Shown here: positions 40,288 through 42,967 of the stretch, in pieces
Layout of the letters: the number at the start of each line of letters is the position of its first letter
How positions within the stretch are numbered: position 1 is the first letter of the stretch
Assembly: GCF_002953255.1 (NCBI RefSeq)
Contig: NZ_CP026498.1
Location: 9,807,605-9,871,604, forward strand
Length of the DNA stretch: 64,000 bases
From: Streptomyces sp. CB01881
GTDB lineage: Bacteria > Actinomycetota > Actinomycetes > Streptomycetales > Streptomycetaceae
Direction: 5' to 3'
The notes under the pieces: generated by a model
What the model was told of the DNA's origin: nothing
The model's database searches: none
Seen by the model: the letters and a program-made list of their open reading frames with translations, nothing else
Made by a program: the position numbers and the translations under genes

Positions 40288-40794
40288 CTACGCCCCCACC
40301 TCGCCGTCGATCGACTCGCGCAGGAAGTCGGCGTGCCCGTTGTGCCGGGCGTACTCGTGGATCAGGTGCAGCATCACCAGGCGCAGCGACACGTCGGCCT
40401 CCCACTTCGGCATGTAGCCCGTCACGTCCAGCGACTCCGCCTCCCGCTCGATCCGGCGGGCGTGCTCGACCTCCTCCTCCCAGGCCGCGAACGCCTGCGC
40501 CCGGTCGGCGTCGCGCGCGTCGTAGGCGGCCTGGAAGTCGCGCTCCGGGGACCAGACGAACGCGATGTCCTCCTTGTTGATCACCCGGCGGAACCACGTC
40601 CGCTCGACCTCGGCCATGTGGCGGACCAGCCCGAGCAGGGAGAGCGTGGACGGCGGGCTCGACTGCCGCCGCAGCTCGTCGTCGGTCAGCCCGTCGCACT
40701 TCATCGCCAGCGTCGCCCGGTGGTAGTCCAGGAAGGCGCGCAGCATCTCCCGCTCGCCCCCGGTCAGCGGCGGCGCGATCCGTTCGGTGGCCAT
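40288..40794 (-). CDS. DinB-fold protein (DUF664)
   Basis: 168-residue four-helix-bundle protein of the DinB/YfiT superfamily. The metal-ligand histidines are in GLVRHMAEVERTWF and MLHLIHEYARHNGHADFLRE, the usual three-His layout. Such proteins are thiol-dependent enzymes, often mycothiol S-transferases in actinobacteria. ATG at 40794 follows GGGGAGACCACC. Convergent with the MinD-like gene; 30 nt separate the stops. Confidence 0.9.
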   Translation of the reverse strand: MATERIAPPLTGGEREMLRAFLDYHRATLAMKCDGLTDDELRRQSSPPSTLSLLGLVRHMAEVERTWFRRVINKEDIAFVWSPERDFQAAYDARDADRAQAFAAWEEEVEHARRIEREAESLDVTGYMPKWEADVSLRLVMLHLIHEYARHNGHADFLRESIDGEVGA

Positions 40795-40991: not shown

Positions 40992-42395
40992 TCAGGCCGT
41001 CAGCCGGACCAGGAAACTGCCCCGGCCGGGGTCGACGGGCAGCCGGCCGGCGCCGAGCGCGGCCAGCAGGTCGTTCGGGTCGGTGCCGAGACGGACCGTC
41101 CGCGGGGTGTCGTCGAGCCGCACCCGGACGAGGCCGAGGTCCAGCTCCAGCACGTCGGCCAGCCAGGGGACGCGCGGACGGGTGCGCCGCAGGTGGCCGG
41201 CGAACGCCGCCGCCTCGTCCGTGGCGAACAGCTCCGGCGGGTGGGAGCGGGTGTAGTCGTCCAGCAGGTCGCGCACCCCGGCCTCGCCGAGGGTGAGCAA
41301 CAGCAGCCGGACGGTGTGCACGAGCGTGCCGGCCAGCGCGCTCGCCCGGGACTCCGTGACCAGCTCCCGCAGCAGCGCGACCGCCGGGTCCGCCGCCAGC
41401 TCGCGGGCGAACGGGCTGTCCACCACCCGGCCGATCGTCAGCGCACCCAGCACGTGCTCCCACTCCTCGGGGCCCGGTCCGGTGTCCGGGCCGGCGGGAG
41501 GCGCACCGGCGGCAGGCCGCTCCCGCGGCACCGGCGCCATCGGCTCCTGCGGCCGCCACTGCTCGCGGACGCGGACCAGCAGGTCCCGGACGGCCTGCGG
41601 GTCGAGACCCGGCACGGCGGAGCCCGTCACCTCGAACAGGACCGCCCGCAGGGCCGGCAGCCTCGGCAGCACCCGTTCCGCCAGGGCGAGCAACTCCTCG
41701 TCCGGCAGCCCGCTGTGCGCGTCCAGCCAGTAGCCGCGGTGCTCGAAGCCGCCGGCCAGGTGCACCTCCCAGACCCGGTCCAGCGGGAGTTCGTCGAGCA
41801 GCCGGGCGACCGGTGCCCTGCCGTTGCGTTCGTTCGCGAGGACGTTGTGCAGGTCGAGCAGCAGCCCGCAGCCCGCGCCCTCGGCCACGCCCGCGGCGAA
41901 CCGGCCGTCGGACAGCTCGTCGGCGCGCGGCCGCAGGTAGTTGGCGCCGATCTCCACGGCGAGCGGGACCGGCACAGCGTCGGCCATGGCCCGGACGGAG
42001 GCGACGCTGCGCCGCACACCCTCGGGGGTCTGCCGCGGCGGGAGCATGAAGCCGGTGCGGAAGCCCTCGTCGCCGCGGCCGGTGTGGTTGAACGCCAGGT
42101 GTTCGCTGACCCAGGGCGCCCGCAGCCGCCCGGCCAGCTCGCCGACGAGGGCGGTGTGCCGGGGGTCGGGTGGCCGGCAGCCGCCGACCGGGTTGCCGAC
42201 GCCGTGCAGCAGCCGGGCCCCGGGAAGGTCCGCGAGGCGCCGCAGCGCCTCCTCGTCGCAGCCGGTCGTGCCGTCCGGCCGCGCGCGCCAGAGCGCCTGC
42301 GGTTCGATCTCGACGACCTCCAGCAGGTCCGCGCAGGCCTCAAGGATCGGCTCGGCGCCGGGGACGTGGGTGAGGCCGACGCCGAGCCCGGTCAC
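40992..42395 (-). CDS. MNIO (DUF692) enzyme fused to DUF2063-like partner domain
   Basis: 467 residues. Residues 1-270 are a DUF692 TIM barrel of the multinuclear non-heme iron oxidative family (MbnB, TglH, ChrH). Candidate metal ligands are in LLHGVGNPVGG (His64), VSEHLAFN (His99), AVEIGANYL (Glu148), LLLDLHNVLAN (Asp181, Asn184), VHLAGGF (His212), YWLDAHSG (Asp225, His227) and LFEVTG (Glu255). The common LEN and ERD motifs are altered, marking a divergent branch. Residues about 315-467 match the partner family DUF2063: DDYTRSHPPELF and VPWLADVLELDLGL. In known systems these are separate B and C proteins that modify a cysteine-containing peptide; here they are one chain. It starts 6 nt after the small CxxC protein gene. 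Confidence 0.88.
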   Translation of the reverse strand: MTGLGVGLTHVPGAEPILEACADLLEVVEIEPQALWRARPDGTTGCDEEALRRLADLPGARLLHGVGNPVGGCRPPDPRHTALVGELAGRLRAPWVSEHLAFNHTGRGDEGFRTGFMLPPRQTPEGVRRSVASVRAMADAVPVPLAVEIGANYLRPRADELSDGRFAAGVAEGAGCGLLLDLHNVLANERNGRAPVARLLDELPLDRVWEVHLAGGFEHRGYWLDAHSGLPDEELLALAERVLPRLPALRAVLFEVTGSAVPGLDPQAVRDLLVRVREQWRPQEPMAPVPRERPAAGAPPAGPDTGPGPEEWEHVLGALTIGRVVDSPFARELAADPAVALLRELVTESRASALAGTLVHTVRLLLLTLGEAGVRDLLDDYTRSHPPELFATDEAAAFAGHLRRTRPRVPWLADVLELDLGLVRVRLDDTPRTVRLGTDPNDLLAALGAGRLPVDPGRGSFLVRLTA

Positions 42396-42401
42396 GTCGG
42401 T

Positions 42402-42656
42402 CTAACCCACGAACGGCTGGGCGATGCCCGGGGCGACGTCGCCCTTGGGGGAGACCACGAAGTCCAGCGACTGCCGGAACCTCAGGTCGAACCCGGAGTG
42501 ACAGGTCGGACAGCCGAGCTGGGTCAGCACGCTCCTGAGCACCCCGCTCATCCGGTCGAGGTCACCCGCCACCGTCGCGGGCACGGTGACGTTGACCTCG
42601 CGCCCGGTCAGCCACGGGTCCGGCACCGGTCCCCTCGTGGTCCCGTTGTTCGACAT
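42402..42656 (-). CDS. Putative substrate peptide of the MNIO enzyme
   Basis: 84-residue protein; ATG 42656 has GAGGAGG at 5-nt spacing. It has no signal peptide. Residues 1-20 are polar, 21-47 include a VNVTVPATVAGDL strand and an amphipathic helix (DRMSGVLRSVLTQL), followed by the only cysteines, Cys49 and Cys52, in LGCPTCHSGFDLRF, then a C-terminal tail with SPKGDV. MNIO enzymes typically oxidise cysteines of a co-encoded peptide, and this gene lies directly upstream of one, so it is the obvious substrate or bound partner (inference). A stand-alone metal-binding protein is the alternative. Confidence 0.75.
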   Translation of the reverse strand: MSNNGTTRGPVPDPWLTGREVNVTVPATVAGDLDRMSGVLRSVLTQLGCPTCHSGFDLRFRQSLDFVVSPKGDVAPGIAQPFVG

Positions 42657-42967
42657 CGCGCCTCCTCGCTCCACGCCGCGGCCCCGTACCGGCGGTCACC
42701 GGCACGTCCTGAGCCCCGGACGGGGCACAGCATTCCGCCCCGCCGAGCGGGCCGAGGAGGTACGCGCCCGAACTGTCACCCGGACTGGCTAGACCGGGGC
42801 CGGCACCGTCCCCGCCGCTCCGCAGCCCCCCGCCACGAGCCGCCCGCCCGGCCGCGCGGGGCGGTCCCGTCCGCCACTGCGCGCGCCCGCCCGACCGGGC
42901 CGGGTACCAGGGCTCGGTACCAGGGCTCGGTGCCGCGCTCGGTGCGTGACCGGGCCTGCCGGGTCGG
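42657..42967. other. Gene-free spacer
   Basis: 311 bp between the secreted protein stop and the peptide gene. It contains a direct repeat ACCAGGGCTCGGT (about 42906-42932). No gene seen; the promoter of the MNIO unit should lie here. Confidence 0.5.

Follow-up and report, generated by a model that had tools for sequence, protein, structure and literature searches.

A Streptomyces two-gene unit pairing a small cysteine-containing protein with a one-chain TglHI-type enzyme: a candidate RiPP-like protein-modification system

Multinuclear non-haem iron oxidative enzymes (MNIOs) perform unusual peptide oxidations, and most of the characterised ones rely on a separately encoded partner. Among the closest described systems is TglH-TglI, from the 3-thiaglutamate pathway of Pseudomonas syringae, for which nine iron ligands have been reported in TglH, namely H71, H107, E151, D184, N187, H216, D229, H231 and E258 (PMC10880893). 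In MbnBC and, by prediction, in TglHI, the thiolate of the substrate cysteine binds Fe1 (PMC10880893). Partner genes mostly come after the MNIO gene, and precursors without a signal peptide correlate with type-2 partners (PMC12452194). Some MNIOs carry an additional C-terminal part in the same chain; examples are the ChrH-family enzymes, with a helical bundle at the C-terminus (PMC12636315), and PflD, which joins an MNIO to a nitroreductase (PMC12636437). MNIO-nitroreductase fusions are also described in PMC12452194. The same paper describes the adjamnio-7 putative precursors, with CxxC and no signal peptide, and adjamnio-IV, a ten-member precursor group of 119-146 aa with 5-6 cysteines, a CxxCC motif and the organisation 'Adjamnio-IV - MNIO' (PMC12452194).

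Here, we describe a gene pair in the 11.3 Mb genome of a Streptomyces strain, located in a stretch of 64,000 nucleotides that is called the window below. An original prediction, made from the DNA letters of the window, had proposed an 84-residue protein followed after 6 nt by an MNIO fused to its partner, and both reading frames are present as described. The small gene and the 467-aa fusion gene lie on the minus strand, with the following features (window positions):

42661..42666 (-): Shine-Dalgarno-like AGGAGG, four bases ahead of the small-gene ATG, read directly
42402..42656 (-): small protein gene, 84 aa, putative substrate (RiPP-like precursor), ATG at 42656, TAG stop
42486..42518 (-): conserved motif LG[CH]xxCx[ST]GxD, small-protein residues 47-57, from 10 motif copies
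42510-42512 (-): Cys49 codon
42501-42503 (-): Cys52 codon
42396..42401 (-): intergenic gap of 6 nt (ACCGAC) from the small-gene stop to the fusion start, same reading frame
40992..42395 (-): fusion gene, 467 aa, GTG start at 42395, MNIO enzyme with fused partner domain
41544..42395 (-): TglH-like MNIO TIM barrel, residues 1-284, from the fold match to TglH and the mapped ligands
41487..41543 (-): linker, residues 285-303, pLDDT below 50
40992..41474 (-): TglI-like partner domain, residues 308-467, from the model and the fold match to TglI

This arrangement is not confined to the window. In all nine loci with the pair, counting the window, the small gene immediately precedes the fusion; the gap is 6 nt in five of them (window, L003, L007, L009 and L010), 10 nt in L004, which comes from Kitasatospora xanthocidica, and 34 nt in L008, where the starts are uncertain. 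The two genes overlap at start and stop in G344 (GTGA) and apparently also in G302 (CTGA, start uncertain). The order precursor - MNIO - partner is preserved here, with the last two fused.

The first part of the fusion is an MNIO barrel, as was proposed. Pfam MbnB_TglH_ChrH (PF05114) matches residues 46-255 with an E value of 7.3e-36 and 124.2 bits, against a cut-off of 25. In the window fusion and in the two distant fusions, every NCBIfam model stays below its cut-off. In the three fusions scanned, the ChrH model scores 36, 36.4 and 58.3 bits (cut-off 600) and the BufB-type maturase model 97.7, 110.3 and 109.3 bits (cut-off 310), which sets the fusions apart from the bufferin maturases. By reading, the small protein shows no hydrophobic N-terminal stretch. 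The ApyH model spans residues 5-278 of the window fusion at 91.5 bits, against a cut-off of 400. When solved structures are compared with the fusion by sequence profile, TglH (E 2.7e-26), 3bww (1.6e-22) and MbnB (7.5e-4) come out best. A whole-chain model, made from nine aligned rows (pLDDT 89.3), matches TglH with Z 28.1 (chain 8hi7_B, 275 residues, 2.8 A) and again with Z 26.6, followed by MbnB with Z 26.5 at most, 3bww with 23.9 and other barrels with at most 17.1. As judged from this model, TglH is only slightly ahead of MbnB in fold.

The TglH ligands were transferred to the fusion by counting along the profile alignment by hand, giving H64, H99, E148, D181, N184, H212, D225, H227 and E255 as predicted iron ligands. 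All nine are invariant in 9/9 fusions. It had been remarked that the usual LEN and ERD motifs are altered, which is right for the neighbouring residues (VEI and FEV in the fusion) but not for the glutamate ligands; E148 and E255 are invariant, and TglH deviates at these places as well, with HEN and LEY. The altered neighbours are none of the ligands reported for TglH, and with all nine ligands kept the iron site is left intact. The fusion segment LDLHN corresponds to LDVNN in 3bww. In a barrel tree of 47 rows, the nine fusions form one clade on a long branch (support 100/99), while TglH, itself a long and unplaced branch, falls outside this clade, in a tree for which the program warns of long branches. 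Fold and ligands thus support a fusion that acts like TglHI, whereas membership in the TglH lineage is not backed by the tree.

The second part of the fusion had been described as DUF2063-like, and is better called TglI-like. Pfam DUF2063 (PF09836) matches in none of the nine members. Modelled alone, the domain reaches a pLDDT of 94.6; Foldseek gives no match at E 0.001 or better, the best being MbnC at E 1.1. A second aligner ranks TglI first, with Z 13.8 to 8hci_A (149 residues, 2.5 A) and then 13.5 (154 residues), followed by MbnC at 6.2 and 5.5 and unrelated chains from 4.1 down; according to its own note, mostly helical models may reach about Z 14 by arrangement alone. We accept a TglI fold for the modelled domain because of the gap to unrelated chains, the coverage of the full domain, and the identity of the top two families, both of which are MNIO partners. 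The aligned part of TglI stops at residue 204 of 268-269, and the fusion has no counterpart beyond it. What stands of the earlier name is the fold and a weak profile match to an unfused partner, that of G143, which matches NGO1945_C and, below threshold, DUF2063, and which aligns to the fused domain at 38% identity over 63 columns with a probability of 49%. A TglI/NGO1945-like fold without a DUF2063 signature corresponds to the PME-type 2 definition of PMC12452194, and a signal-less small protein together with a type-2 partner fits the correlation published there. Enzyme and partner in one chain is therefore an accurate description, as a TglH-like barrel with a TglI-like domain, and C-terminal fusion to an MNIO has precedents in ChrH and PflD. 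Two other matches of the domain were set aside, namely a designed protein, the one match among PDB sequences (E 0.73), and Pfam RAMPs in 2/9 rows (best E 0.0028), judged to be chance.

The unfused relatives in the same genus offer a useful comparison. G143 (L013:925-3050) and G147 (L012:623-2913) share the precursor - MNIO - partner order with the window; unlike the window, they use three genes, in an operon where the first encodes a short protein with CIVCLICIVC or CVVCLICIVC near its end. This short protein is a candidate precursor family of its own; the NGO1945_C match of the partner was tested in G143. Several other MNIO loci were observed along the way. The genome of the window carries a second, separate MNIO near 4.95 Mb (L001:1282-2301); in the tree it shares a clade with L071, next to which a TIGR04222 membrane protein is annotated. 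In G761 (L052:2304-3334), a long protein divergent from the MNIO gene contains two Cys-rich repeats, CHLVCRWLCSKHCVFVCRR and CHWLCMVRCRAVCRVMC; it is cut by the locus end, has no Pfam match and is a possible large MNIO substrate. On a plasmid of Streptomyces sp. NBC_01527 (L070:1312-5564), a DUF692 gene is flanked on one side by a 274-aa protein without a Pfam match and on the other by FAD/NAD(P)-binding and 2OG-Fe(II) oxygenase genes.

The small protein of the window has 84 residues and two cysteines, Cys49 and Cys52, which lie in the segment GCPTCHSG, as had been described. The alignment of the nine loci contains ten motif copies, as the protein of G302 is doubled (145 aa, 5 Cys, CAACC). C52, G55 and D57 are invariant in all ten, and Cys52 is the sole invariant cysteine, while L47 and G48 are retained in 9/10. 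Residue 49 is Cys in seven copies and His in three (L003, L004 and the first copy of G302); residue 53 is H in seven, with T, C and A once each; and residue 54 is S in nine and T in one. Aligning the CxxC region had been suggested as a check, and the outcome is divided, with Cys52 upheld and Cys49 not. Because Cys49 is replaced by His in three copies and His53 is variable, conservation covers neither a reaction of two cysteines nor a haem motif, and the idea that both cysteines act together is unsupported. By alignment reading, the core appears to run strand - helix - CxxC turn - strand; Cys52 is internal, 32 residues ahead of the C-terminus. No signal sequence is found by reading, as had been proposed, and a haem-binding CxxCH was dropped for this reason and for the variation of His53.

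Searched against Pfam, NCBIfam, PHROGs and PADLOC at E 1, the small protein of the window matched nothing, and over ten small-protein rows Pfam gives Zn_ribbon_8 in two (best E 0.078) and two single weak matches besides. Seven matches to PDB sequences, up to E 10, were judged to be chance; the best of them (E 0.0004, to a cytochrome c555 trimer) owes its score to three copies of a 17-residue match, none of which passes singly. The dN/dS values (NG86) of the small gene are 0.45-0.76 in 13 of 15 pairs and 1.03 and 0.17 in the other two, with G123, G302 and G344 excluded; those of the fusion are 0.20-0.44 in 21 pairs, with G302 and G344 excluded. Faster evolution of the small gene than of the fusion would suit a precursor, and would also suit weak constraint.

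Conserved co-occurrence in other actinomycetes had been proposed as a check of the pair, and it is found. Within the genus, the small-gene profile occurs in 6/70 genomes (E 0.001) and the fusion profile in 10/70 at 1e-40, comprising six full-length fusions, three barrel-only genes (G096, G143 and G147) and one remnant (G041). The small gene and the full-length fusion share the identical six genomes, and both also occur in G302 and G344. The chance of such an overlap within the genus is 7.6e-9 if genomes are independent, which they are not; co-occurrence exceeds chance. Beyond the genus, the family is rare and patchy. A family sample searched with the fusion at 1e-30 gave 9/249 genomes, which are the same six, the remnant and two of the barrel-only kind, and a class sample at 1e-35 gave 6/296, the own genome alone being full-length. 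In the phylum sample, the fusion profile at 1e-15 matches 20/396 genomes, full-length in the own genome, G302 and G344 alone; the small-gene profile at 0.01 matches 6/396, of which the same three are convincing. The other three (G040, G622 and G461, E 0.0016-0.0026) were dropped, as no [CH]xxCx[ST]Gx[DE] was present in their ORFs of at least 40 aa. The G302 and G344 pairs represent other actinobacterial classes, one genome each; the counts are 1/66 genomes in the class of G344, 1/50 in the family of G302, and, for the small-gene profile in the class of G302, 2/149, made up of G302 and one weak match that was set aside (G738, E 0.0045). Close relatives of both proteins are present in Kitasatospora xanthocidica JCM 4862, for which reason the genus with its 70 genomes is taken to be Kitasatospora, and Streptomyces sp. 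SID12488 also carries the pair.

Mobile elements were searched as well. On plasmids, 332 records match the fusion and none spans 80% of it; among the 40 matches listed, all fall within residues 1-284. Six plasmid records matching the small protein at E 0.2-8 were judged to be chance. Tistrella mobilis pTM3 matches from residue 1 of the fusion, yet a separate 255-aa ORF follows the MNIO there, in what by reading is an ordinary bufferin-type cluster. Viral contigs gave 29 and 78 pattern matches, none confirmed, and neither protein has a PADLOC or PHROGs match that would point to a defence or phage origin.

The surroundings of the pair were compared in ten loci of 16-20 kb each, G041 included, using a crude ORF caller and blastp. 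The fusion was grouped in all ten loci and the small gene in four, the others being missed by the caller. One further three-locus group, oxidoreductase-like from its start, was judged unrelated, and the remaining groups represent sister strains. Since the caller misses small genes, the comparison was repeated by tblastx with the pair masked, covering eight loci in 28 locus pairs and leaving aside the sisters L061 and L064; among up to three best matches per locus pair, those longer than 35 residues were all below 45% identity. No third conserved gene was found by ORF grouping or by tblastx in the eight loci, a comparison that a very short gene could escape. Around the window pair, five of nine neighbouring ORFs have a Pfam match (mycothiol-S-transferase, methyltransferase, esterase, trypsin-like peptidase and, below cut-off, a CbiA/ParA-type nucleotide-binding protein) and four have none. 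Among these nine ORFs, four of them matchless, no exporter-like Pfam family was found, in line with the original prediction, and none of the PEARL (TglB) or later TglHI pathway genes was found by Pfam. No protease dedicated to the small protein was seen beside the pair. The mycothiol-S-transferase (DinB fold) gene follows the fusion on its strand at a distance of 197 nt (40288-40794, minus) and is outside the groups common to the other loci. In G041, where the locus is in synteny with that of G123, the small gene was not detected and the barrel is left for about residues 28-97 only; an IS605-type OrfB/TnpB-like gene (L064:8425-9759) sits inside the partner-domain remnant. This decay, although a single event, shows that the unit is dispensable.

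Taken together, we favour, with a probability of about 0.6, a RiPP-like unit of two genes that works in the cytoplasm: the fusion, as a one-chain enzyme of the TglHI type, would oxidise the protein encoded beside it, with Cys52 as the most likely site. The basis observed in sequence or model consists of the nine TglH ligands kept, the TglI-like domain in cis and the inheritance with the small gene, and it upholds the original description of an uncharacterised RiPP-like two-gene unit, with conserved co-occurrence and with enzyme and partner in one chain. The small protein would be the substrate, and the fusion a single-chain version of the TglH-TglI enzyme. The partner domain would hold the small protein, whose core would present Cys52 to the barrel; the Cys52 thiolate may then bind Fe1, and O2-dependent oxidation would modify Cys52, as in MbnBC and, by prediction, TglHI. 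It is because a cysteine thiolate binds Fe1 in those systems that we take the small protein as the substrate and Cys52 as the target. Residue 49 (Cys or His) and Asp57 may hold the turn in place or, once modification has occurred, contribute to the binding of a metal ion. Candidate chemistries at Cys52 include a thiooxazole-like ring, carbon excision or another, between which the sequence cannot discriminate. The modified product probably stays in the cell, as neither a dedicated exporter nor a dedicated protease was found beside the pair. The equal invariance of Asp57 and Gly55 counts against fixing Cys52 as the target.

Because MNIOs oxidise aspartate too, the strongest rival places the oxidation, a hydroxylation or another, on the invariant Asp57 of SGxD rather than on a cysteine. 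Asp57 is present in 10/10 copies, PesHI, PflD and ApyH are MNIOs acting on Asp (PMC13060819, PMC12636437), and the ApyH model covers most of the barrel region, though far under its cut-off. However, PesH and PflD are described as being without the third-iron HxD motif, of which the fusion retains D225 and H227, Cys52 is just as invariant, and MNIO oxidations are said to act mostly on Cys (PMC12452194), so that we consider an aspartate target unlikely. That the small protein is instead a third subunit or metal carrier of the fusion, which would act on another target, appears improbable. By reading, it looks more like a small domain with a fold than like a leader and core, its [CH]xxC could bind metal (the zinc-ribbon model is touched in two of the ten rows, at the E value given above), and the lack of a dedicated protease or exporter beside the pair would agree with such a role; yet MNIO precursors would be expected to show just this gene order and faster evolution, and MNIO substrates can be large proteins (PMC12452194; MelA1 in PMC12636315).

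A different product would result from a ChrH/DybH-like reaction linking both CPxC cysteines into a macrocycle. The chryseobasin system shares with the window an MNIO barrel and C-terminal extra domain in one chain, a CPxC substrate, which CPTCHSG resembles, and minimal clusters in which a precursor accompanies an MNIO that ends in a helical bundle (PMC12636315). Its product, however, uses both cysteines of a CPxCGxG motif, whereas residue 53 is never G in the ten copies and the three His49 copies disfavour any two-cysteine reaction of this type. The ChrH scores also lie at a tenth of the cut-off or less, and the C-terminal domain of the fusion has about 160 aa and a TglI fold, against a short helical bundle of about 7.8 kDa in ChrH. 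We therefore regard the macrocycle as very improbable.

Among known systems, the locus comes close to TglH-TglI, with which it shares the barrel fold (Z 28.1), the partner fold (Z 13.8) and the nine iron ligands. It differs from that system in having one chain in place of two separate proteins, in a proposed target, Cys52, that is gene-encoded and internal, where the substrate Cys of TglH-TglI is appended to the C-terminus of TglA, in the missing part of TglI beyond residue 204, and in a tree that does not group TglH, an unplaced branch, with the fusions. Among precursors, the small protein resembles adjamnio-7 in its CxxC without a signal peptide (PMC12452194). At 84 aa and 2 Cys it is shorter than adjamnio-IV, whose description does fit the G302 protein, a comparison by description only; this doubled form may already lie within the published adjamnio-IV group. 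No MNIO-partner fusion is mentioned in the consulted text of the adjamnio paper (PMC12452194), and none of the open-access articles searched was seen to describe an MNIO fused to a TglI-type partner.

The one-chain TglHI-type enzyme with its small protein looks like a very small, unstudied protein-modification system. As a natural enzyme in one chain, with a partner protein of 84 residues, it offers a simple two-gene system for structural work on barrel, partner and substrate, and the natural His49 orthologues separate one-cysteine from two-cysteine chemistry without mutagenesis. More speculatively, and with doubt on our part, a family of compact and folded cytoplasmic proteins may be turned by the self-contained fusion enzyme into an intracellular metal site built from a single modified cysteine, Cys52, together with residue 49 (Cys or His) and Asp57, a chemistry that would be new for MNIOs. 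If this is true, the pair would yield a post-translationally built site kept inside the cell, and not a secreted natural product.
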